Positions 1 through 62,525 of a stretch of DNA of 64,000 nt are shown here, in pieces. Position numbers and translations under genes: made by a program. Origin of the DNA: Verrucomicrobium sp. GAS474 (GTDB taxonomy: Bacteria; Verrucomicrobiota; Verrucomicrobiia; Methylacidiphilales; GAS474); NCBI RefSeq assembly GCF_900105685.1, contig NZ_LT629781.1, positions 558,001 through 622,000 on the forward strand. Direction: 5' to 3'. The notes beneath the pieces were generated by a model. It worked only from the letters and a program-made list of their open reading frames with translations. It searched no databases and was not told the DNA's origin. The first letter of the stretch is position 1; every line of letters starts with the position of its first letter.

Positions 1-2261
1 TATTCGACGTCACGGTGGCCAACGGAGGCGACTCCGCCGAGACGGTGCAGGTAGCCTACGCCATCCATCGTCGCAAAGACGGCGCGCTTCTCTTCGCCGA
101 CGAAAACGCGGGCCGGGCGGACGTTCCCTCCACGGGTGAGGCGCAGATCCGGATCACGACGCCGATCCTCGCGCCTCGCCTTTGGTTCCCGCACGATCCC
201 GAGCTGTACGAGGTGACCGTCGAACTGATGCGTGCCGGAAAAAGCATCGACCGCTATCGCGTCGAATTCGGATTCCGCACGTTCACCACCGAGAAGAACC
301 GCTTCCTGCTCAACGGCAAGCCCTACTGGCTTCGCGGGGCCAACCATTTCCCCCACGCGCTCGGTCCCAACGACGAGAAGCTGGCCGACACCTTCACGCG
401 CCTCGCCGTCGAGGGCAACGTGCGGGCCACCCGCTTCCACGTGGCACCCCTCACGAAGGCGTGGGCCTGCGCCGCCGACCGCCACGGCCTCGCCGTCTCT
501 TTCGAGGGAATCTGGCCGTGGCTGATGCTCAACGGAGAACCTCCGGCCGACGCCCTGCTGCAAGCCTGGGAAGACGATTTCGCCTCCCTCGTGAAGCGCT
601 TCCGGAACCATCCCTCCGTCGTCCTCTGGACGGTGAACAACGAGATGAAGTTCTACATCTTCGATAAGGAAAACAAAGAACGGCTCCAGCGCAAGTGGGC
701 CATCGTCTCCCGGATGATCAAGCGGATGCGCGAACTCGATCCCACCCGCCCCGTCGTCGCCGATTCGGGTTATGTCCGGGGCGCCCATATCGAGGACTAC
801 CGGAACATCGTCGAGCCGAACGGCTTCGACGACGGGGACGTCGACGACATCCACGAATATTACAGTTGGTATCATCCTTCCTTCACCACCGCGTGGAAGG
901 GGGAGTTCGCGGCGCGCTCGTCGTCGCCGGACCGTCCCTTCATCTGCCAGGAACTTTCCTCGGGCTACCCGCGCAACGACGACGGCCTCCCCGTCCGCTT
1001 CTACCTGTTCAATCACCAGACGCCGCAGGCCCTGGTCGGCGACTATGCGTTCGAGCACAACGATCCCGCCCATTTCCTCGCGCGGCACGCCCTCACCACC
1101 CGGCAGACGGGCGAGGCCATCCGCCGCACGAACCGGGACAACGCCGCGGGAGCCCTCCACTTCGCCTATCTCACGTGGTTCCGCAACGTCCACGACGCCG
1201 CGACGGTGACGCCGTGGGCCCCCTATCACGCTCTCCGTGCCGCGCTCCAGCCGATCCTCCTCAGCCTCGAGCATCTCGGGAGCCGCTGTTACGCAGGGGC
1301 CCGTTTGCGTCGGCGTGTCTGCGTCGTGAATGACTCCGAAACCATGGAAGGGCTCCCCGCCTCCCGGCTGGAATGGAGCTTCGTCGACCGAAGCGGGAAG
1401 ATTCTTTCGCGGGACGGCATCCTCGTGCCTGCCGTTCCTTATTATTCCAACCATTGGGTCGACGTCGAGATCGTCGCGCCCGCGGTCCTCGGGACTCCCC
1501 GGGTCGATGGCCGTATCCTCCTTCGGCTTTCGGTCGAAGGTCGGACGCTTGCCGAGAACGCCTACGATTTCACTGTCGCCTCGCGCGAGTGGACTCATCC
1601 GGCCGGGGCCTTCCCGGCCCGTGTCAGTCTCTACGACCCCCAAGGCGTCCTGGCGCCGCTCCTTCCCGCCGATTCCTTCACTGCGGCCTCGCTGCTCTCG
1701 GAAGCCATGTCGGCCGAGGTAATCGTTGCCGACGCCGCAGATCTGGGAGTCTCGGAGTTGGGCGACTTGCGGAGGTTTGTCGAGGAGGGAGGCCTGCTCT
1801 TCCTTTCCCATGCGGGGGAAAAAATGGCGGAGTTCATGCCCGAGGTCGTCAAAGGATACCGCAAAGTCGACGGAGAAATCGTGAATTTCAAACAACCGGA
1901 ATCGGTCCTCTTCGAGGAGATCGAGCCCCTCGACCTCGCCTGGTTCGAGGGAGGCGCGGCGGAGGCCCTCGCCTGCATCGGGGTCTACGAAATGGACGGC
2001 AACGCGCCGGAGGCCTCCCCTCTCGCCGAGTTCTGCGACTTTCACAACTACCTCCAACGCCCCGAGGAGGTTCTCCTCCACAACGGCGTTCCCCTCCTCG
2101 AAGCCCGCCTGGGACGGGGTTTCCTCATCGCCAGCGAGATGAACCTCGAGGCTGGCCGGGACGAGCCGGTCGCCGCCCGTCTCTTGAACAACGGCATCGT
2201 CCGTTTGGCGCGGATCGCCGCCGCGATGGCGAAGAAACAACCGGCTTTCGCCGCCCGCTGA
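1..2261 (+). CDS. Glycoside hydrolase family 2-type enzyme (5' partial)
   Basis: The reading frame is open from base 3, and the residues before the first possible start (GTG at 15) continue an Ig-like beta-sandwich, so the true start lies upstream of the window. The fold order is sandwich domain, then a TIM barrel beginning near LNGKPYWLRGANHFP. The barrel carries the GH2 acid/base motif TVNNE (Glu codon at 642) and a probable nucleophile in CQELSSG (Glu codon at 951). About 350 C-terminal residues form accessory domains. GH2 enzymes are beta-galactosidases, mannosidases or glucuronidases; which one cannot be read from sequence alone. It is the first visible gene of a glycan-degradation operon, 12 bp upstream of the transporter. 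Confidence 0.85.
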   Translation, partial: FDVTVANGGDSAETVQVAYAIHRRKDGALLFADENAGRADVPSTGEAQIRITTPILAPRLWFPHDPELYEVTVELMRAGKSIDRYRVEFGFRTFTTEKNRFLLNGKPYWLRGANHFPHALGPNDEKLADTFTRLAVEGNVRATRFHVAPLTKAWACAADRHGLAVSFEGIWPWLMLNGEPPADALLQAWEDDFASLVKRFRNHPSVVLWTVNNEMKFYIFDKENKERLQRKWAIVSRMIKRMRELDPTRPVVADSGYVRGAHIEDYRNIVEPNGFDDGDVDDIHEYYSWYHPSFTTAWKGEFAARSSSPDRPFICQELSSGYPRNDDGLPVRFYLFNHQTPQALVGDYAFEHNDPAHFLARHALTTRQTGEAIRRTNRDNAAGALHFAYLTWFRNVHDAATVTPWAPYHALRAALQPILLSLEHLGSRCYAGARLRRRVCVVNDSETMEGLPASRLEWSFVDRSGKILSRDGILVPAVPYYSNHWVDVEIVAPAVLGTPRVDGRILLRLSVEGRTLAENAYDFTVASREWTHPAGAFPARVSLYDPQGVLAPLLPADSFTAASLLSEAMSAEVIVADAADLGVSELGDLRRFVEEGGLLFLSHAGEKMAEFMPEVVKGYRKVDGEIVNFKQPESVLFEEIEPLDLAWFEGGAAEALACIGVYEMDGNAPEASPLAEFCDFHNYLQRPEEVLLHNGVPLLEARLGRGFLIASEMNLEAGRDEPVAARLLNNGIVRLARIAAAMAKKQPAFAAR

Positions 2262-8487: not shown

Positions 8488-10686
8488 ATGAATCGCTCCT
8501 TCTTCCTTTCGGGACTCCTCTTCTGCTGCTGTGGCTTTGATACCCTCCGCGGCACCGATCTCTCCGCGAGCTACGATTGGAAGCCGATGAAGGTCGGCGG
8601 GGGCGGCTGGGTCGTCGGCATGGATATCAGTCCCACGGAGAAGAACCTGATCTACATCCGCACCGACGTCTCGGGCGGCTATCGGTGGAACGCCGAGACC
8701 TCGACGTGGAAGCAGGTCGTCACCTCCTCGAGCATGCCGAAGGAATACGTCGAGTACGGCAAGTACTCGGGCGTCGACAGCCTCGTGAGCGCGCCGAAGG
8801 ACCCGAACGTCGCCTACATGGCCTTCTCCAAGCAGGTCTTCCGGAGCGCCGACCGGGGTGAGACCTGGAAAGCGACGACGTTCGGAACCCACGATCTCGC
8901 GATGGACTCGAACGGCGAGGGGAGGCAGGAGGGGGAGCGGCTCGCCGTCGACCCGAACAACAGCGACATCGTCTACTACGCCTCGATCGCGAACGGTCTC
9001 TGGCTCACTCCCGACGGCGGAGCCACGTGGAGCAAGGTGGCCGCGATCCCGGCGGGCAAGCTGCCCCACGGCGTCAACACCGTCGTCTTCGACAAGGGGA
9101 GCGCCACTCTCCCGGCGAAGGGGGAGACCGTGAAAACGAGCGTCCTCTACGTCACCGTCGAGGAGGCGGGCATTTTCAAGAGCGCCGACGCGGGTGCCAC
9201 GTGGACGAACATCGCGGCCTCGGCTACCGGCACCCCTGGTCCCGGAGTGAAGGTCCGCAACGCGAAGATCGGCCCGGACCGCACCTACTTCGTCGCCTGC
9301 GACAACGACAAGGGAGCCGTCGGCTCGGTCTGGAAGCTCAACGTCGCCGGGGAGTGGACGAACATCACCCCGCCCCCGCCGAACGGCGGAAGCCAATCCT
9401 ATGTCGACATCGCCGTCGACCCGTTCGACGCCCATCATCTCCTCGCCATGGAGAACGGCGGCAAGTGCTTCCTCTCGACCGACCAGGGCGCAACGTGGAC
9501 CTACCATTTCTTCCGGCTCGAGAGCGCGAAGATCGAGTGGCTCGGCAAGCAGGAGAACTACTGGCTGAGCGTCGGCGAACTCGCCTTCGATCCGTTCGAC
9601 CGGGGCAAACTCTGGTTTGCGGAGGGCTTCGGCGTCTGGTGGGCGAAGGACCTCGCCGCAGTCCAGATCCCCTGGCAGGCCGAGAGCGCGGGAATCGAGG
9701 AAGTCTGCGCCCGTGAGATCGTCGCCCCGCCCGGGGGCAAGCCGGTCGGCGCGGTGTGGGACGCGGGCGTCTTCTATTTCAGCGATCCCGATGTGTACAC
9801 CGCAAAACGGGCGCTGCCCTACTTCATGGCGTGCTGGTCGATCGACTGGTGCCCCGCCGATCCGAAATTCATCGCCGCCCTTTTCCGGAACAACCTCAAC
9901 TTCGGCCCGATGCCGAGACAGGCGGGCTACTCGACCGACGGCGGGCTGACGTGGAAGCGGTTCCCCGCCGCCGAGAACAAGACCCTCCCTCCCGGCCTCG
10001 ATTACGGCATCGTCGCCGTCTCCGCGAACACTCCCGACCACATCGCCTGGTGTCCCGCGTTCACCAAGCTCCCGTTCTACACCGCCGACCGGGGTGCGAC
10101 GTGGCAGCAATCCGATTGCGGCGAGCTGAAGGCGACGGGGATGTCCCCGATCCATTCGGGCCAGCGGCCGATCTGCGCCGACCGCGTCCTACCCGATACG
10201 TTCTATCTCTACACGACGAGTGACGGCGTCTACCGCTCGACCGACGGGGGAGCGCACTATGCCAAGGTCGGCGGACCGTCCTGCCCCGGACGGACCAACG
10301 CGCTCCTCAAGGCGGTGCCGGGCCACGGCGGTGACCTCTGGTTCGCCGAGGAGTCGGGCGGCGGCCTGTGGCACTCGACCGACGGCGGTGCCAAGTGGGA
10401 GGCCCTTCCCGGCTTCCAGCGTTGCATGACCATCGGCTTCGGCAAGGCGCAGACCGAGGATGGCTACCCGACGCTCTACGTCGACGCCATCCGCGGCGGC
10501 GTCACCGGCATCTACCGCTCCACCGACACGGGAGCCACCTGGGACAAGATCTGCGACTACCCCCTCGGCCTCTTCGAGTGGGTCAACTCGATCGACGGGG
10601 ACAAGGAAGTCTTCGGCAAAGTCTACCTCGGCTTCGCCCAGGCCGGTTTCGCCTACGGCGCGCTCAAAGAGCAGTCCAATCCCTGA
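8488..10686 (+). CDS. GH74-like beta-propeller glycosidase, exported
   Basis: 732 residues starting 15 bp after the mannosidase. It has a hydrophobic N-terminal signal (RSFFLSGLLFCCCG); the cluster of Cys makes lipoprotein processing possible but there is no clean lipobox. The mature start VGGGGWVVGMDISP then IYIRTDVSGGYRW matches the beginning of GH74 xyloglucanases, where the Asp in RTDVGG is catalytic. Repeated Asp-box/BNR motifs (SADAGATW, STDQGATW, STDGGAHY, STDTGATW) run through the protein and indicate a two-propeller fold. GH74 enzymes are endo-acting on xyloglucan; here the exact glucan is unproven. It is the last gene of the glycosidase operon. Confidence 0.8.
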   Translation: MNRSFFLSGLLFCCCGFDTLRGTDLSASYDWKPMKVGGGGWVVGMDISPTEKNLIYIRTDVSGGYRWNAETSTWKQVVTSSSMPKEYVEYGKYSGVDSLVSAPKDPNVAYMAFSKQVFRSADRGETWKATTFGTHDLAMDSNGEGRQEGERLAVDPNNSDIVYYASIANGLWLTPDGGATWSKVAAIPAGKLPHGVNTVVFDKGSATLPAKGETVKTSVLYVTVEEAGIFKSADAGATWTNIAASATGTPGPGVKVRNAKIGPDRTYFVACDNDKGAVGSVWKLNVAGEWTNITPPPPNGGSQSYVDIAVDPFDAHHLLAMENGGKCFLSTDQGATWTYHFFRLESAKIEWLGKQENYWLSVGELAFDPFDRGKLWFAEGFGVWWAKDLAAVQIPWQAESAGIEEVCAREIVAPPGGKPVGAVWDAGVFYFSDPDVYTAKRALPYFMACWSIDWCPADPKFIAALFRNNLNFGPMPRQAGYSTDGGLTWKRFPAAENKTLPPGLDYGIVAVSANTPDHIAWCPAFTKLPFYTADRGATWQQSDCGELKATGMSPIHSGQRPICADRVLPDTFYLYTTSDGVYRSTDGGAHYAKVGGPSCPGRTNALLKAVPGHGGDLWFAEESGGGLWHSTDGGAKWEALPGFQRCMTIGFGKAQTEDGYPTLYVDAIRGGVTGIYRSTDTGATWDKICDYPLGLFEWVNSIDGDKEVFGKVYLGFAQAGFAYGALKEQSNP

Positions 10687-16180: not shown

Positions 16181-16785
16181 AGGGGGGGCGCGGGTTGGGG
16201 GGTGCCCTTCGGGACTTGCGCGGTCGACCCTGTACAGCTGGAGGCGATCCGCTTTAACGCCACAGAGGGGCTCCGCCCCTCCGTGACCTCCTGTTCTGAG
16301 GGCCTCAACTAGGCGGACGCGTTTCCCCCTGCGCCTCGTCTCCTAACTGGATTAAAATCGGATGGTTCCAGTACGCCCGAGGGTACGTATTGAAGGGGTA
16401 GCAGTACCAATACGCCCAGACTCCTATCGGGAGAGAAGCGTATGGGAGAGATATCTTCAGGGGTTCAGCACCGAGGAGATGGGCCTGCATCCTTGGATGC
16501 TCCTTCCCATGGCTCGGCCCTCATAGAGGTTAGATCCAGCGGAGTAGAGTGAGCGCATGAGAGATTAGCCTTTAGGTTCGCGCTTTATTTACACCACGGC
16601 CTATCAGAGGGGGAGGTGCAGGAGGGGCGCAATGCCGTCGCGTTAGCGACACTCGTTCTCAGGGGAAACTAACTCGCATGGCCGGGAGGCAACCCCCTCT
16701 TGCATCTCTAAACGCGCGTCCGGCATCCAGCTGTACAGGGAGATGTACCCCGTCCCGAAGGGCTGCCCCTCCCCCGCGCCCCCCG
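16181..16785 (+). mobile_element. MITE-like repeat element, copy A (complete)
   Basis: A 600-bp non-coding element. Its ends are an imperfect inverted repeat of about 60 bp: the left arm reads CCCTTCGGGA...CTGTACAGCTGGAGG, and the right arm repeats it inverted at about 16709-16785. The family core with CTGGATTAAAATCGGATGG lies at 16343-16369 and the covarying hairpin module at 16637-16650. Related copies lie at 21458-21822, 28738-29316 and 62251-62525. There is no transposase or convincing ORF: the open frame across the core contains a stop here. It lies about 100 bp after purU; 16081-16180 holds nothing else I can name. Confidence 0.8.
16637..16650 (+). ncRNA. Covarying GNNA hairpin in copy A
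   Basis: GTCGC-GTTA-GCGAC, a perfect 5-bp stem with a GNNA loop. Other copies keep the loop class but exchange two stem pairs (TGCGC...GCGCA), so pairing rather than sequence is conserved. It lies within a module that begins with an AGGAGGGGC box and ends with GGGAGGCAA. Confidence 0.5.
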
Positions 16786-16834: not shown

Positions 16835-19567
16835 ATGAGTTCGTCCCCGTCCCCCACTCCCTTCGAGTCCGAAGGCTGCACTGTTCCCGCCTTCCCCACG
16901 CTCCCCCGTATCGAGGTCCGGGCGAAGTTCTTCTTCGAGGGGGACCGCAAGTATGTCCTCCAGGGGGTGACCTACGGGCCGTTCCGCCCGCGCGGCGAGG
17001 GGCTGCCCTGCTTCCCGACGGCCGACGAGGTCTTCCGCGATTTCGACCTGATGGCCCCGCTCGGGATCAACACGATCCGCATCTACCACACGCCGCCGAA
17101 GTGGTTCCTCGACATCGCCGCCTCGCGCCGCATCCGGGTGATGGTGACGATCCCGTGGGTGAAGCGGGTCCTCTTCCTCGACGACGCCGAGGTCCTCCAC
17201 CAGACGCGGGAGAACCTCGCCGAGGCGGTGAAGGCGAACGCGGGGCACCCGGCGATCATGGGCTACTTCATCGACAACGAGATCCCGCCCGACCTCGTCC
17301 GCTGGTACGGGCCGCGCAAGATGGAGGCCTTCCTCGACTCGATGGTCGCCCTGGTGAAGAAGCACGATCCCGGCGCGCTGGCGGCCTACGCGAACTTCCC
17401 GCCGACCGAGTACATCCTCCCGGCGAACGTCGATTTCCTCAGCTACAACGTCTACCTCCACGACAAGAAGATCCTCTCGAACTACCTGGGCCGCCTCCAG
17501 AACCTCGCGGGGGAAAAGCCGTTGATCCTCTCCGAGTTCGGCATGGACACGATCCGCCATCCCGAGGAGGAGCAGGCGGAGCTGCTGAAGACCCACGTGA
17601 CGACGGTCTTCCAGGCGGGCCTCGCCGGGACGATCATCTTCTCGTGGACTGACGAGTGGTTCACCGACGGCGTCGACGTGGAGGACTGGGCCTTCGGCAT
17701 CGTGACGAAGGAACGCCGCCCGAAGGCGGCCTACCACGCCCTCCAGCCCTACCTGGCCAATCCCGACCGGCCCCTCTACGAGCGGTTCCCGCTCCCGCGG
17801 ATGCCCCGCGTCTCCGTCGTCGTCTGCTCCTACAACGGGGCGAAGACGCTCCGGGACTGCCTGACCTCGCTCGGCAAGCTCGACTATCCCGACTACGAGG
17901 TGATCTTCGTCGACGACGGCTCGAAGGACGACACGCAGGAGATCATGCGCGCGTTCCCGGACGTGCGGAACATCGTCCAGGTGAACAAGGGGCTCTCCGT
18001 CGCCCGCAACGTCGGCATCCACGCCTCGACGGGGGAGATCGTCGCCTTCACCGACTCGGACTGCATGGTCGACAAGGACTGGCTCTACTTCCTCGTCCAG
18101 GCGCTCGACGCGGGCGGGTTCGCCGCCGTCGGCGGGCCGAACATCTCCCCCCCCGCGACCGACTGGATCCAGGCGACCGTCGCCTCGGCCCCCGGCTCCC
18201 CCAGCCACGTCCTCCTCACCGACACCGTCGCGGAGCACGTCCCCGGCTGCAACATGGCCTACTGGAAATGGTCCCTCGAGGAGATCGGCGGCTTCGACCC
18301 GCAGTACCGCAAGGCGGGCGACGACGTCGACGTCTGCTGGCGGATCATGCAGCTCGGCCACCAGATCGGCTTCTCCCCCTCGGCGATCGTCTGGCACTAC
18401 CGCCGCTTCACCGTCGACGCCTACTTCGGCCAGCAGCGCGGCTACGGCGAGGCCGAGGCGATGCTCCGGTACAAGCACCTGAATTACTTCGGCTCGACCG
18501 GCTCGGCGATCTGGCACGGGCGCGTCTACACGCAGGTCCGCCTCGATCCGTTCTTCAGCCAGCCCCTCGTCTACCACGGGATCTTCGGCACCGGGTTCTT
18601 CCAGTGCGTCTACCCGAAGGGGGAGAACCCCTACCTCGGCCTCTTCGGGAGCCTCGAATGGGTCTCGTTCTCGACGCTGATCCTCCTCCTCTCCCTCCCG
18701 CTGCCGTTCCTCCGGCTGGTGCCGCTGATCCTCTTCGGCCTCACGATGCTCAACGGCCTCTCCTACATGACGCGGGCCCGCATCGAGCCGAAGTTCGACT
18801 CGATCCGCACCCGCCTCCTCCTCTTCTACCTCGCCATCATGCAGCCTCTGGCGCGGGGCCGGGCGCGGCACTTCACCTGGCTGCGCGGGAAGCGGACCCC
18901 CGAGGCCGTCATCGCGACGCCGGAGAGCCTCCCCCACGCCTCCAGCAGCCTCCTCTCCGCCGGCCATCTCACCTTCTGGAGCGAGAGCGGCAAGGAGCGG
19001 ACCGACCTCCTCGCCGAGATCGAGAAGCTCCTCGACGCCGAGGGGTGGAACTACACCCTCGACACGGGGTGGACCGACTGGGACATCCACATCTTCGCCA
19101 GCCGCTGGTGGAACATCCGCCTCCGGACGATCACCGAGATCTACCCCCACGGCCGCCGCCTGACGCGGGTCGGGAACTTCCTCGTCGGGAGCATGTTCTC
19201 GAACATCGTCTGGATCGTCCTCGTCATCCTCGGCCTCGTCTTCAGCCTGACCCAGGTGAAGGAGCTCCCCTTCGTCAACGCTTTCCACGGCGTCGTCGAG
19301 GCGCTCGACAGCGGGGCCTTCAACGAGATCCCCTTCGGCCTCGTCTGCGCCGTGCTGCTGGGCCACTTCGGCATCTGGTTCGCGAACGGCCTCCGCCTTC
19401 GCCACCGCGTCGCCGAGCTGGTCCACGTCGCCGCCGTCCACGCCGGGCTCCAAAGCGTGAAGACCGGGAAGAAGGACAAGGAGAAGGCGAAGCCCTCGTC
19501 CGAGCCTCCGACGGGCGCGGAGCCGCAGGCCGAAACGGTCGTCTCGCCCCAACCCCCGCAAGCGTGA
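16835..19567 (+). CDS. Glycosidase-like domain fused to GT2 glycosyltransferase, membrane-anchored
   Basis: 910 residues. Residues 28-310 form a GH2/GH-A-like TIM barrel with acid/base Glu149 (GYFIDNEIPPD) and nucleophile Glu234 (LILSEFGMDT). Residues 324-560 are a GT-A family 2 transferase: VSVVVCSYNGAKTLRDCL, FVDDGSKDDT, the metal-binding TDSDC at 406-410 and GCNMAYWKWSLEEIGGFD. Then come hydrophobic segments near 605-650 and two more around 770-850, with a Lys/Glu-rich tail. One polypeptide therefore carries both a hydrolytic and a synthetic domain at the membrane. The ABC transporter starts 19 bp later, suggesting joint synthesis, trimming and export of a surface glycan. The polymer is unknown. 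Confidence 0.85.
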   Translation: MSSSPSPTPFESEGCTVPAFPTLPRIEVRAKFFFEGDRKYVLQGVTYGPFRPRGEGLPCFPTADEVFRDFDLMAPLGINTIRIYHTPPKWFLDIAASRRIRVMVTIPWVKRVLFLDDAEVLHQTRENLAEAVKANAGHPAIMGYFIDNEIPPDLVRWYGPRKMEAFLDSMVALVKKHDPGALAAYANFPPTEYILPANVDFLSYNVYLHDKKILSNYLGRLQNLAGEKPLILSEFGMDTIRHPEEEQAELLKTHVTTVFQAGLAGTIIFSWTDEWFTDGVDVEDWAFGIVTKERRPKAAYHALQPYLANPDRPLYERFPLPRMPRVSVVVCSYNGAKTLRDCLTSLGKLDYPDYEVIFVDDGSKDDTQEIMRAFPDVRNIVQVNKGLSVARNVGIHASTGEIVAFTDSDCMVDKDWLYFLVQALDAGGFAAVGGPNISPPATDWIQATVASAPGSPSHVLLTDTVAEHVPGCNMAYWKWSLEEIGGFDPQYRKAGDDVDVCWRIMQLGHQIGFSPSAIVWHYRRFTVDAYFGQQRGYGEAEAMLRYKHLNYFGSTGSAIWHGRVYTQVRLDPFFSQPLVYHGIFGTGFFQCVYPKGENPYLGLFGSLEWVSFSTLILLLSLPLPFLRLVPLILFGLTMLNGLSYMTRARIEPKFDSIRTRLLLFYLAIMQPLARGRARHFTWLRGKRTPEAVIATPESLPHASSSLLSAGHLTFWSESGKERTDLLAEIEKLLDAEGWNYTLDTGWTDWDIHIFASRWWNIRLRTITEIYPHGRRLTRVGNFLVGSMFSNIVWIVLVILGLVFSLTQVKELPFVNAFHGVVEALDSGAFNEIPFGLVCAVLLGHFGIWFANGLRLRHRVAELVHVAAVHAGLQSVKTGKKDKEKAKPSSEPPTGAEPQAETVVSPQPPQA

Positions 19568-19586: not shown

Positions 19587-21443
19587 ATGGATTACCGCAC
19601 GCAGAAATCGTCCGACGCCGACCGCATGAGCACGAAAGAACCGTCCGCAGGGACCTCCTCGGTCTACCTCCGGGCCATCCGCTTCTACCGGCCCTACCTG
19701 GGCCAGATCGGCGTCGCGCTGGCCCTCCTCCTCGTCACGATCGGCCTGAATCTCCTCAAGCCGTGGCCGGTGAAGTGGATGATCGACACCGTCATCCCCG
19801 TCGCCTCGGCGGCGAAGAACGGCCCCGTCCCCGACATCGTCTTCTGGGGGATCAAGATGTCGGTCGCCCACGCCACGCTGTGGGCCGCGGGGAGCGTCAT
19901 CGTCATCTACCTCCTCCAGGGCATCTTCAACGTCGGGAACAACTACATCCTCGTCGAGATCGGCCTCAAGGCCCTCCTCCACCTCCGCACCCGGCTCTAC
20001 GCCTTCCTCCAGCACCTCCCCCTCCACTTCCACGAGCGGCGGCGGAGCGGCGACTCGACCTTCCGCGTCGCCTACGATTCCCAGGCGATCCAGACCCTCT
20101 TCAACCGGGGCTTCACCACCGTCCTCAGCTCGGTCATCACCCTCGTCGGCACCTTCGTCGTCATGTTCTACGTCGACCGGACCCTCGCCTACTGCTCCCT
20201 CGCCGTCGTCCCCCTGCTCTGGCTCACGATCTCCTTCTTCGCCGTCCGCATCCGCAAGGAGAGCGACACCCTCCAGCAGGAGGAGAGCGACGTCCTCGCC
20301 GCCGCCACCGAGGGCCTCTCCGCCATCCGCGTCGTCCACGCCTTCGGCCGGGAGGAATACGAGGTGAAGCAGTTCGCCCGCGAGGCCGAGCACAGCTACG
20401 GGGCGAACCTCCGCCTCACCCTCACCAGCACCCTCTCCAGCCTCATCGTCGGCCTCGTCACCTCCCTCGGCACCGCCCTCGTCCTCTACCTCGGCGTCAC
20501 CCACGTCCTCCAGGAACGCCTCGACATCGGCAACCTCTGGGTCTTCCTCACCTACCTCACCAACCTCTACCAGCCCCTCGAGCAGCTCAGCTACACGGCG
20601 TGGTCGATGGAAGGGGCCGCCGCCGGCATGCAGCGCGTCTTCGAGGTGATGGACACCGAGGACACCGTCCCGGAGACCCCCGGCGCCCCCGCCCTCCCGC
20701 CGATCGACGGGCGGATCACCTTCGACCACGTCTCCTTCGGCTACGAGAAGGACGAGGAGACGATCGTGAAGGATCTCTCCCTCGACATCGTCCCCGGGCA
20801 GACCGTCGCCATCGTCGGCGGGACCGGCGCGGGGAAGACGACCGTCCTCTCGATGATCCCCCGCTTCTACGACCCGACGGCGGGCCGGATCCTCCTCGAC
20901 GGCCACGACATCCGGAAGTACCAGAAAAAATCGGTCCGCGAGAACATCGCCATCGTCCTCCAGGACACCCTCCTCCTCTCCGGCACCATCGAGGAGAACA
21001 TCGCCTACGGCCGCCTCGGCGCGAAGCCCGAGGAGATCCGCCGCGCCGCCGTCCAGGCCCAAGCCCACGACTTCATCCTCCGCCTCCCGCAGGGCTACCA
21101 GACGCCCGTCGGCGAGCGGGGCGTCCGCCTCTCCGGCGGCCAGCGCCAGCGGATCGGCATCGCCCGCGCCTTCCTCAAGGGAGCTCCCATATTACTCCTC
21201 GACGAGCCGACGAGCGCCCTCGACGTCGCGACCGAATCGGAAGTCATGGACACCCTCCGCCGCCTCATGCGGATCCAGACCACCCTCATCGTCACCCACC
21301 GCCTGAACACCGTCCACCACTACGCCGACAAGATCTACGTGATGGACCAGGGCGTCCTCGTCGAGTCCGGGAGCGGTGCCGAGCTGCTGGCCAAGGGCGG
21401 CTGCTACGCCAACCTGTGGTCGAAGGGAAATTACGGCGCGTAG
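19587..21443 (+). CDS. ABC transporter, fused permease-ATPase (MsbA-like exporter)
   Basis: 618 residues (start ATG 19587; ATG 19626 is an alternative). The N-terminal half is a six-helix type IV exporter domain, with LLHLRTRLYAFLQHLPLHF in the coupling region. The C-terminal nucleotide-binding domain has Walker A GGTGAGKTT, signature LSGGQRQRIGIARAFL, Walker B ILLLDEPTSALD and a switch His in IVTHRLNT. Such half-transporters act as homodimers exporting lipids, lipid-linked glycans or peptides. Its coupling to the glycosidase-transferase gene suggests a lipid-linked or free glycan substrate. A truncated repeat element begins about 15 bp after its stop. Confidence 0.92.
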   Translation: MDYRTQKSSDADRMSTKEPSAGTSSVYLRAIRFYRPYLGQIGVALALLLVTIGLNLLKPWPVKWMIDTVIPVASAAKNGPVPDIVFWGIKMSVAHATLWAAGSVIVIYLLQGIFNVGNNYILVEIGLKALLHLRTRLYAFLQHLPLHFHERRRSGDSTFRVAYDSQAIQTLFNRGFTTVLSSVITLVGTFVVMFYVDRTLAYCSLAVVPLLWLTISFFAVRIRKESDTLQQEESDVLAAATEGLSAIRVVHAFGREEYEVKQFAREAEHSYGANLRLTLTSTLSSLIVGLVTSLGTALVLYLGVTHVLQERLDIGNLWVFLTYLTNLYQPLEQLSYTAWSMEGAAAGMQRVFEVMDTEDTVPETPGAPALPPIDGRITFDHVSFGYEKDEETIVKDLSLDIVPGQTVAIVGGTGAGKTTVLSMIPRFYDPTAGRILLDGHDIRKYQKKSVRENIAIVLQDTLLLSGTIEENIAYGRLGAKPEEIRRAAVQAQAHDFILRLPQGYQTPVGERGVRLSGGQRQRIGIARAFLKGAPILLLDEPTSALDVATESEVMDTLRRLMRIQTTLIVTHRLNTVHHYADKIYVMDQGVLVESGSGAELLAKGGCYANLWSKGNYGA

Positions 21444-21457
21444 CGCACCGCGGATTA

Positions 21458-21822
21458 ATAGGAATCTAGGCGTATTGGTCCCGTCTCCCCCGCAGTACGT
21501 ACCCTCGGGCGTACCGGAACCATCCGATTTTAATCCAGTTAGGAGACGAGGCGCCACCAATCGCGTCCGCCTAGTTCAGGCGCTCAGAAGGGGACTGCCT
21601 GCGCGATAGCGCAATACCTCGTAAAGGGGAAACTAACTTGCAGGGTTGGGAGACAAGTTCCAGGAGGGGCAGAATGCCGTCGCGGTAGCGACACTCGTTC
21701 CTCAGGGGACACTAACTGGCATGGCCGGGAGGCAAGCCCCTCTTGGGCTATAAAGCGGGTCGCCTCCAGCTGTACAGGATCGACCCCGCAAGCCCCGAAG
21801 GGCCGCCCCGCTTCCCGACATC
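21458..21822 (-). mobile_element. MITE-like repeat element, copy B (right half missing, rearranged)
   Basis: In reverse orientation relative to copies A, C and D. Read on the minus strand it begins with the family terminal repeat (CCCTTCGGGGCTTGCGGGGT...CTGTACAGCTGGAGGCGACC), then two tandem inverted hairpin modules at 21590-21660 and 21661-21737, then the core with CTGGATTAAAATCGGATGG (27-nt block at 21516-21542). It breaks off after CCTAGATTCCTAT near 21458, close to the ABC transporter stop. The right terminal repeat is absent. No coding capacity is seen. Confidence 0.75.
21600..21692 (+). ncRNA. Tandem covarying hairpins in copy B
   Basis: Two hairpins: TGCGC-GATA-GCGCA at 21600-21613 and GTCGC-GGTA-GCGAC at 21679-21692. 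Within one element both stem versions occur side by side, each perfectly paired and each with a GNNA loop. They are followed by AAGGGGAAACTAACTTGC and GGGGACACTAACTGGC, which are themselves related. Confidence 0.5.
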
Positions 21823-26314: not shown

Positions 26315-27409
26315 ATGGTTCCTATTTCGCAAGCGTGGACGGTCGCCAGTTACGTCCTCGGCCAGAAGATCAAGGGCAACAAGCGTTACCCGCTGGTCAT
26401 GATGCTCGAACCCCTTTTCCGTTGCAACCTCGCCTGCGCGGGCTGTGGCAAGATCCAGTATCCTGCCCACATTCTCGATAAGCGTTTAACGCCCGAGCAG
26501 TGCTGGGCCGCGGCCGACGAGTGCGGCGCCCCGATGGTCTCCATCCCCGGCGGCGAGCCCCTCATCCATAACGAGATCGACCAGATCGTCGCCGGCCTCG
26601 TGAAGCGCAAGAAGTACATCTATCTCTGCACGAACGCGATCCTGCTCAAGAAGAAGATCGACCTCTTCACCCCCTCGAAGTACCTGACCTTCTCCGTCCA
26701 CATGGACGGCGGCAAGGAAGACCACGACGAGGCGGTCTGCCGCGACGGCGTCTACGAGACGGCCCTCGAGGGGATCAAGGAAGCGGTGAAACGCGGCTTC
26801 CGCGTCACGACGAACACGACCCTCTTCGACGGGGCGAACCCCGAGCGCGTCCGCGCCTTCTTCGACGAGATGATGAAGCTCGGCGTCGAGGGGATGATGC
26901 TCTCCCCCGGCTACAGCTACCAGAAGGCCCCCGACCAGGAGCACTTCCTCCACCGCGACAAGACGAAGGCCCTCTTCCGCTCGATCCTCGAGAACAAGAA
27001 GAAGAGCTGGCGCTTCAACCTCTCCCCCCTCTTCCTCGAGTTCCTCCAGGGGAACATCGATTACGAGTGCACGCCCTGGGGCAACCCGACGTACAACGTC
27101 TTCGGCTGGCAGCGTCCCTGCTACCTCCTCCAGGAAGGCTACGTCAGCACCTTCAAGGAGCTGATCGAGACGACGAAGTGGGAGAACTACGGCCACAAGA
27201 GCGGCAACGAGAAGTGCGCCGACTGCATGGTCCACTGCGGATACGAGCCGACCTCGGTCGACGACACCTTCGGTTCCCTCGCCGGCCTCGGCCGGACGAT
27301 CAAGGCGACCTTCGGCATCTCCCTCGCGAAGAAGGGGAGCCCCGGCCACAGCGCGCCCCCCGCGCCGCCCTCCGCCCCCGCGCAGGTCGCCGAGCCCGCC
27401 CTCCACTAA
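26315..27409 (+). CDS. hpnH: Hopanoid biosynthesis radical SAM protein HpnH
   Basis: 364 residues. The radical-SAM cluster is CxxxCxxC at Cys37, Cys41 and Cys44 (FRCNLACAGCGK), followed by the SAM-binding SIPGGEPLIH. A C-terminal Cys-rich segment (NEKCADCMVHCGYEP) is typical of HpnH. HpnH joins 5'-deoxyadenosine to diploptene, giving adenosylhopane, the first step to extended C35 hopanoids. The last 40 residues are a Pro/Ala-rich tail. No other hopanoid gene lies nearby. It is followed 21 bp later by a conserved-looking unknown that is likely co-transcribed. Confidence 0.93.
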   Translation: MVPISQAWTVASYVLGQKIKGNKRYPLVMMLEPLFRCNLACAGCGKIQYPAHILDKRLTPEQCWAAADECGAPMVSIPGGEPLIHNEIDQIVAGLVKRKKYIYLCTNAILLKKKIDLFTPSKYLTFSVHMDGGKEDHDEAVCRDGVYETALEGIKEAVKRGFRVTTNTTLFDGANPERVRAFFDEMMKLGVEGMMLSPGYSYQKAPDQEHFLHRDKTKALFRSILENKKKSWRFNLSPLFLEFLQGNIDYECTPWGNPTYNVFGWQRPCYLLQEGYVSTFKELIETTKWENYGHKSGNEKCADCMVHCGYEPTSVDDTFGSLAGLGRTIKATFGISLAKKGSPGHSAPPAPPSAPAQVAEPALH

Positions 27410-28737: not shown

Positions 28738-29316
28738 GTCGCGGGGCGGAGGCGGCCCTTCGGGGCTTGCGGGATCAACGCTGTACAGTGGAGGTAATCC
28801 GCTTTATAGCCACAGAGGGGCTTCGCCCCTCCGTGACCTCCTGTTCGGAGGGCCTGAACTAGGCGGACGCGTTTCCCCCTGCGCCTCGTCTTCTAACTGG
28901 ATTAAAATCGGATGGTTCCGGGGCGTCCGAGGGTACGTACTGCGGGGGTAGACGGTATCAATACGCCCAGACTCCTATTGGGAGAGGAGCGCTTGGAAGA
29001 ATGGCCGCTTCGGCTCCGCCAGCACTCGGACGCGTGATTCCTCCCAAGCGCGTTAGATCTAGCGGAGTACAACTCTCCGAAGGAGCATTGCCTTTAGATG
29101 GAAGGAACCGTTCCCCCTACCGCCTCTTACGGGAGAGGTTCAAGGAGGGGCGACAGCCTGCGCGATAGCGCAACTACTCGTAAGGGGAAACTAGCTTGCC
29201 GGGCCGGGAGGCAAGCCCGCTCCTTGGCGTTAAAGCGGATCGCCTCCAGCTGTACAGGCAAGCGCAGCGATTCTACCCTGCCCCGAAGGGGTCTCACCGC
29301 CCCCCTCGCGCCCCCT
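28738..29316 (+). mobile_element. MITE-like repeat element, copy C (complete)
   Basis: About 580 bp, same orientation as copy A. The left end CCCTTCGGGGCTTGCG...CTGTACAGTGGAGG is inverted at the right end (GGCGTTAAAGCGGATCGCC then CCAGCTGTACAGG, then CCCCGAAGGGG). The core block is at 28893-28919 and the hairpin module at 29159-29172. Between core and module it shares with copy A only short blocks such as GTTAGATCTAGCGGAGTA and GCCTTTAG. It fills the whole gap between sufE and the convergent acetyltransferase gene. No ORF of significance. Confidence 0.8.
29159..29172 (+). ncRNA. Covarying GNNA hairpin in copy C
   Basis: TGCGC-GATA-GCGCA. Compared with copy A the outer two stem pairs change from G-C and T-A to T-A and G-C, preserving pairing. 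Confidence 0.5.
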
Positions 29317-62250: not shown

Positions 62251-62525
62251 GGGGGGGAGCTGCCCTTCGGGGCTTGCGCGGTCGACCCTGTACAGCTGGA
62301 GGCGACCCGCTTTATAGCCCAAGAGGGGCTTTGCCCCTCCTCGAACCTCCCCTTCGGAGGGCCTTAGCTAGGCGGACGCGTTTTGGCGGCGCCTCGTCTC
62401 CTAACTGGATTAAAATCGGATGGTTCCGGTACGCCCGAGGGTACGTACTGAAGGGGGAGCAGTACCCATACGCCCAGACTCCTATCGGGAGAGGAACGCT
62501 TGGGACGAATCACGCGTCCGGGGGC
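62251..62525 (+). mobile_element. MITE-like repeat element, copy D (left half only)
   Basis: About 275 bp beginning at the ubiE/menG stop codon. Contains the left terminal repeat (CCCTTCGGGGCTTGCGCGG...CTGTACAGCTGGAGGCGACC), the core (27-nt block at 62401-62427) and CCAGACTCCTATCGGGAGAGG. The right arm and hairpin module are missing; the sequence runs into the 3' end of the convergent gene. The frame SPNWIKIGWFRYARGYVLKG is open through the core here, but not in copy A. Confidence 0.75.

Follow-up and report, generated by a model that had tools for sequence, protein, structure and literature searches.

Two described systems lie closest to the locus analyzed in this study. In the Cgs/NdvB systems of Agrobacterium, Brucella, and Rhizobium, a multidomain assembly line elongates, shortens, and cyclizes beta-1,2-glucan, and its control of chain length is proposed to suit the product to the transporter (PMC10901819). 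In pseudomonads, a BcsA-like protein known as 'Orphan' or NdvB, with the arrangement GH17-TM-GT2 (GH, glycoside hydrolase; TM, transmembrane; GT2, glycosyltransferase family 2), is proposed to cleave and cyclize its own glucan (PMC10237404). We analyzed a 64,000-nucleotide stretch (the window) of Verrucomicrobium sp. GAS474 (contig NZ_LT629781.1, positions 558,001 to 622,000; source genome of 3.76 Mb, one contig), in which one open reading frame (ORF) joins a clan GH-A barrel to a GT2 domain and membrane helices and is followed by the gene of an ATP-binding cassette (ABC) half-transporter. As in the Cgs/NdvB systems, a GT2-fold transferase is joined to processing domains in a membrane protein, and an ABC half-transporter is paired with the synthase, the Cgs exporter (Cgt/ChvA/NdvA) being dedicated (PMC10901819). 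As in the pseudomonad protein, a TIM-barrel glycosidase domain at the N-terminus shares one chain with a GT2 and membrane helices (PMC10237404).

The fusion of barrel and GT2, with an exporter gene next door, is confirmed. We interpret the pair, with a probability of roughly 0.45, as a glycan synthase anchored in the membrane and facing the cytoplasm, the barrel of which would process the product, together with an exporter dedicated to that product. An earlier sequence-only reading of this DNA proposed a polymerase that trims or transglycosylates its own product; taken as a whole, that interpretation is partly supported.

The fusion gene and its N-terminal barrel

The ORF was recovered at exactly the position that the sequence-only reading had given. 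The features of its N-terminal half, in window coordinates, are as follows.

16835..19567, + strand: fusion protein of GH-A barrel, GT2, and membrane helices, 910 residues (ORF, Pfam, homologs, AlphaFold model)
16904..17770, + strand: clan GH-A TIM barrel, residues ~24-312 (model, fold and profile matches, invariant E149 and E234)
17279..17281, + strand: codon of Glu149, predicted acid/base, after Asn148 (aligned with the NE of the GH157 enzyme LaGH157; invariant)
17534..17536, + strand: codon of Glu234, predicted nucleophile (aligned with E224 of LaGH157; invariant)

ORF length alone proves nothing at 16835-19567, because the opposite strand holds a 981-residue shadow ORF. The + frame is the real gene, since it has Pfam matches over their cut-offs and near-full-length homologs; all domains and homologs lie in this frame, and a shadow-ORF artifact was thus ruled out. 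A near-full-length single match to the protein was present in 46 of 60 genomes at the order level, its own included. The other 14 comprised eight with split or partial matches and six with short GT2-like matches only or none. The closest relatives by this protein were metagenome-assembled genomes of Verrucomicrobiota, several of them labeled Methylacidiphilales. AlphaFold modeled the whole 910-residue chain with a predicted local distance difference test score (pLDDT) of 82.5 and a predicted template modeling score (pTM) of 0.78. Conservation counts refer to 73 aligned homologs, the rows of which were picked as matches to the fused protein. A 39-row alignment contains stop-to-stop open frames, some of its rows starting ahead of the true start; alignments A1 and A2 hold 36 of the 39 rows, the near-duplicates L029, L042, and L043 being excluded. 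A scan for promoters and terminators gave nothing above chance.

Two Pfam models exceeded their cut-offs in the barrel, namely the GH2 TIM barrel (residues 28-242, 31.5 bits, cut-off 21) and GH72 (residues 22-264, 28.0 bits, cut-off 25.9). The AlphaFold model of the barrel, built from 36 homologs, reached a pLDDT of 88.6 and a pTM of 0.87. Its top PDB fold match was LaGH157 (9g4n_A; Z 30.0, root-mean-square deviation 2.9, 298 aligned), and GH2 glucuronidases came next at Z 28-29, within about 1 Z, so that GH157 and GH2 are near-tied as fold relatives. In the sequence profile search, GH157 was the clear leader (2.3e-23), followed by a GH2 galacturonidase (1.1e-12), the GH72 enzyme GAS2 (2.5e-7), and GH158 (3.2e-6). 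GH157 and GH158 enzymes are beta-1,3-glucanases, and GH72 enzymes are transglycosylases (1,3-beta-glucanosyltransferases).

Glu149 and Glu234 had been named as the probable catalytic pair. Both sit where they had been placed, in N148-E149 and in an E-F-G motif, each at the end of a strand of the barrel model (141-146 and 230-235). The protein thereby shows the clan GH-A pattern, a TIM barrel whose two catalytic Glu residues follow strands 4 and 7 and in which an Asn precedes the first of them. In the profile alignment, Glu149 matches the Asn-Glu pair of LaGH157; Glu234 aligns with LaGH157 Glu224, a residue that appears as Glu in wild-type LaGH157 and as Ala in its E224A mutant (PDB 9g4n). E149, E234, N148, R82, Y84, and W275 are invariant in all 73 homologs, among which 32 of the 289 barrel positions are fully invariant. 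Structure modeling had been set beforehand as the check that could refute the proposal by showing a barrel without a competent active-site pocket. The model instead gave a confident fold around an invariant Glu pair and no incompetent site, so that a competent-looking active site is supported by the predicted structure and conservation. Retaining chemistry would follow from membership of clan GH-A.

GH2 glucuronidases recognize the uronate carboxylate through an N-K motif (PMC7933434). The barrel lacks this motif: 6ncw has NNKG where the barrel has W285-A-F287-G, and neither W285 nor F287 varies among the 73 homologs. A glucuronidase identity is thus not favored, and because W285-x-F287 stands at the N-K site, the barrel substrate is more likely a neutral sugar than a uronic acid.

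The GT2 domain and membrane topology

The remaining parts of the protein are listed below.

17804..18514, + strand: GT2 (GT-A) domain, residues ~324-560 (Pfam, NCBIfam below cut-off, conservation)
18629..18886, + strand: membrane-associated helices, residues ~599-684 (hydropathy window 600-646; model helices 607-620, 628-647, 657-684)
18965..19189, + strand: alpha/beta domain, residues ~711-785 (secondary structure of the full-length model)
19193..19441, + strand: C-terminal membrane helices, residues ~787-869 (hydropathy 778-814, 824-855; model helices 787-806, 835-869)

Pfam placed GT2 at residues 327-483 with 109.8 bits, and the GT-A glycosyltransferase fold matched too. The motifs are DDGS (360-363), TDSD (406-409), GDD (495-497), and QQxGYG (533-538). 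D361, D407, D409, D496, and D497 are invariant in 73/73 homologs and D360 is kept in 72, with TDxD and GDD retained throughout; the domain thus has a GT-A fold, a DxD-type metal site, which is the TDSD that the sequence-only reading had pointed out, and a catalytic base Asp. QQxGYG begins 36 residues past the last Asp of GDD, a spacing that we take to match that of QxxRW in BcsA. The best NCBIfam models for this half of the protein were MftF, EpsD, and PgaC, all under their cut-offs; MftF, the best of them, reached 158 bits, far under its cut-off of 280.

Hydrophobic stretches fit for membrane helices occur only past the GT2 domain, in the three windows listed, as had been claimed for the membrane attachment. 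The small alpha/beta domain sits between these helices and has conserved W/D residues; residues 550-910 have no Pfam match. Across the 73 sequences, residues 24-590 contain no hydrophobic span (maximum 19-residue Kyte-Doolittle value of 1.58), and neither a signal peptide nor a membrane span precedes the barrel or separates it from the GT2. Because no span precedes the GT2, the barrel and the GT2 are expected on the same, cytoplasmic side. The pseudomonad GH17, by contrast, lies in the periplasm, behind a signal peptide, and TM1 connects it to the GT2 (PMC10237404); a periplasmic barrel of this style was rejected here because signal and span are absent.

Coupling of the synthase to the ABC half-transporter

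19587..21443, + strand: MsbA-type (ABCB-like) ABC half-transporter, 618 residues (Pfam ABC_membrane and ABC_tran)

The transporter ORF begins 19 bp past the synthase stop codon. Its PF00664 domain (43-330) is followed by PF00005 (394-543), the arrangement of an ABCB-type half-transporter. The best-scoring NCBIfam type was MsbA/lipid flippase, at a level below the cut-off (450 bits for MsbA, cut-off 602); the ChvA/NdvA models gave 374.5 of 733 bits (PRK13657) and 311.2 of 585.4 bits (TIGR01192).

The linkage of the two genes was examined in 47 stretches, among which L110 and L111 are duplicates and L030, L034, L037, L039, and L051 are short downstream; a locus counted as testable when at least 900 bp of downstream DNA was available. 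At the level of the window's order, 29 of 33 testable loci had the transporter immediately after the synthase and on its strand (in two frames in L047); it was not adjacent in L026, L032, L092, and L049, the order of the last being unconfirmed. It was adjacent in none of seven class-level relatives (L095-L101). A look for other conserved neighbors of the synthase gave no lead: flanking genes in class-level relatives vary and encode UvrD, queuosine synthesis, a class-III aminotransferase, a GT87-like protein, a sulfatase, and an FAD oxidoreductase of the glycerol-3-phosphate oxidase type.

Transporter orthologs scored at least 560 bits and paralogs at most 367 bits, the E-value cut-offs for presence being set after the scores were seen. 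The ortholog was found elsewhere in the genome (560-810 bits) in G004, G012, G017, G009, G042, G177, G217, and G071. No ortholog (best score at most 356 bits) was present in G241, G238, G229, and G122, whose only synthase is a distant one, or in four class members that gave no synthase match. The distant synthase subfamily (L098, L099, L100, L101) is 37-41% identical and may use a different export route or make a different product. The close synthase (barrel at least 340 bits) occurred in nine of 194 genomes sampled across the phylum, and the transporter ortholog occurred in the same nine. In the order of G071, 36 of 48 genomes had both genes, 11 had neither, one (G816) had the synthase only, and none had the transporter only, so that presence and absence agreed in 47 of 48. 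The genes were on different contigs in 35 of the 36 genomes with both; in G818, opposite strands carry them, with about 9.4 kb in between. Joint absence stood beside joint presence inside the families f59, f14, and f18, and likewise in f9 of the window's order, where G024 (95% complete) lacked both. Among the new evidence, this joint retention of unlinked genes weighs most. The coupling to an ABC exporter noticed earlier thus holds for gene adjacency and extends to co-occurrence even where the genes are unlinked.

Distribution beyond the phylum

In the searches made, outside which Planctomycetota, Acidobacteriota, and other phyla lie, barrel-GT2 fusions were found only in Verrucomicrobiota. 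Among 398 genomes of the phylum of G249 (a locus titled Alphaproteobacteria), 16 gave barrel matches, of at most 52 bits and with GT2 presence unchecked. In the phylum of G248 (a locus titled Omnitrophota), 73 of 145 genomes had barrel matches. Twelve Omnitrophota stretches compared with the full-length profile showed no match past the barrel, and Pfam scans of nine of these proteins found no GT2; the barrels stood alone or with CBM9, TPR, PilZ, or Ig-like domains, most having a hydrophobic stretch near the N-terminus. In several, the acid/base site reads NDAP or NDMP rather than NE, and such relatives are possibly inactive or altered in mechanism, to judge from these residues. The proteins concerned, in which the barrel stands alone or beside TPR or PilZ domains, are listed below.

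L139:4032-5144, Omnitrophota barrel protein with NDAP/NDMP
L139:6950-9265, the same
L141:4645-6951, the same
L145:5683-7050, the same
L146:4259-6376, the same

Plasmid records gave no match spanning 80% of the fusion protein; the barrel alone matched four records at about 25% identity. An Aminobacter plasmid candidate was rejected, the gene upstream of its GT2 match encoding a TackOD1 protein and not a barrel. The literature search found no paper on a barrel-GT2 fusion, a weak negative given that most subscription papers were outside its reach.

Other features of the window

Two repeats flank the two-gene unit. The 28-base sequence GATTTTAATCCAGTTAGGAGACGAGGCG occurs at 16332-16359 (-), 21526-21553 (+), 28882-28909 (-), and 62390-62417 (-), three of the copies being exact and the fourth having 1 mismatch, and two copies bracket the unit in opposite orientation; within the window, it has the look of an interspersed intergenic repeat family. 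The other, a 34-base repeat (16659-16692 and 21702-21735, +), has a copy on each side of the unit. No copy of either was expected by chance. At 8488-10686 (+), a 732-residue protein carries Sortilin-Vps10 and BNR repeats, a type of propeller known from some secreted glycosidases.

Proposed mechanism and alternative explanations

On our interpretation, the GT2 would work at the inner face of the membrane and extend an acceptor with sugars taken from a nucleotide sugar. Located on that side too, the barrel would act on the GT2 product through a retaining two-Glu mechanism, with E149 as acid/base and E234 as nucleophile, and would cut, transfer, or close the chain, releasing a defined oligosaccharide; transglycosylation or closure, or else length trimming, is its likeliest role. 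The GT2 appears to have no obvious channel of its own, and the ABC half-transporter would move the product out through the inner membrane, into the periplasm or the envelope. The product may be a neutral, beta-glucan-like glycan, as the beta-1,3-glucan leaning of the barrel relatives suggests.

Several results weigh against this interpretation. QQxGYG stands in 73/73 homologs at the site where processive synthases have QxxRW; because QxxRW is absent, the GT2 may add only a few residues. With no hydrophobic span ahead of the GT2 either, the protein does not fit the processive BcsA type, and the description of the GT2 as a polymerase was not borne out. By NCBIfam scores, the transporter resembles glucan exporters no more than it does MsbA. 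The pair is not obligatory across the family, since the four genomes with the distant synthase lack the transporter ortholog. In addition, G816 (86% complete) has a synthase without the ortholog, and G025 (78% complete) has the transporter with only a short GT2-like match on the synthase side. The Fisher test on the 48 genomes (p = 5e-10) overstates the support, because the genomes are related and shared ancestry is ignored.

Some of these observations feed the main rival, in which the product is a glycolipid: the GT2 adds sugar to a membrane lipid, the barrel alters the head group through transglycosylation or hydrolysis, and the MsbA-type transporter flips the result to the outer leaflet. 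The transporter has its highest scores with MsbA/lipid-flippase-type models, although these stay below cut-off, and the GT2, without QxxRW and with few helices, is unlike a synthase that threads its own polymer. At this one locus, a radical-SAM gene with DUF3463 lies about 5 kb downstream (26315-27409, +), an arrangement that we take to resemble that of HpnH in hopanoid biosynthesis and that would bear on a glycolipid only if the neighbor is conserved. Nevertheless, the nearest solved relative of the barrel by profile acts on a polysaccharide, and no lipid-binding feature was identified in the fusion protein; we regard this route as unlikely, although it remains the alternative with the most weight. 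That the transporter is instead a separate flippase, for example for lipid A, sharing only ancestry and gene order with the synthase, would agree with its MsbA-range scores and with a linkage limited to the window's order. The genome, however, has three further MsbA-type half-transporters, one of which (L152) has glycosyltransferase genes no more than about 3 kb away, and the ortholog was lost along with the synthase in several lineages although the two are unlinked, which makes this explanation improbable.

Two further alternatives concern the barrel. It could be a noncatalytic domain that holds the glycan or serves as a ruler for the GT2, and we know of no activity for any member of the family, which counts in favor of this view. 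We nonetheless find it hard to credit: the predicted acid/base and nucleophile are invariant although so few barrel positions are, and the acid/base position can change when it is not needed, because several secreted or membrane-anchored Omnitrophota relatives read NDAP or NDMP there. A hydrolase with a clean-up role in the cytoplasm, one that recycles product left unexported without shaping it, would fit the expected placement on the GT2 side and the hydrolases among the fold relatives; the 1:1 fusion in all 73 homologs, rows chosen as matches to the fused protein, speaks for a step coupled to synthesis, and a clean-up role is very improbable.

The self-processing synthase with its exporter is only the best placed of these explanations, and a wider claim built on it is more tentative still. 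The pair might represent an undescribed type of self-processing synthase with its own exporter, in which a cytoplasmic GH-A barrel closes or transfers GT2 chains and which provides two Verrucomicrobiota orders, streamlined freshwater lineages included, with a core glycan of the envelope that might be a cyclic or length-set beta-glucan. If so, it would open a first way to study an envelope glycan that even relatives with genomes of about 1.3-2 Mb have kept, as well as offering a compact enzyme for making defined oligosaccharides. The joint retention of synthase and transporter predicts a shared phenotype.

Comparison with known systems

The fusion, and an export pump that is retained or lost along with it in many species, suggest a little-known route for making and exporting a surface sugar. 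Among single enzymes, the endo-beta-1,3-glucanase LaGH157 (PDB 9fz9/9g4n/9g5g) is the best profile and fold match with an aligned nucleophile position, whereas identity is about 18% and the solved LaGH157 shows no GT2. The pseudomonad GH17-GT2 protein has Q(Q/R)xRW where the fusion protein has QQxGYG; its barrel is a GH17, whereas the present one is GH157/GH2/GH72-like and is accompanied by a separate ABC exporter (PMC10237404). Cgs is built from GT84, a GH144-like cyclization domain, and a phosphorylase (GP), whereas here a GH-A barrel stands ahead of the GT2 and Pfam gives only GT2-type and GH2/GH72-type domains, with none in residues 550-910. By analogy, a self-processing glycan synthase with an exporter would be a known kind of system, built here from different parts. 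If our interpretation holds, the task of making, trimming or closing, and exporting an envelope glycan has been solved once more, with a GH-A barrel fused to the synthase and working inside the cell on the nascent chain.

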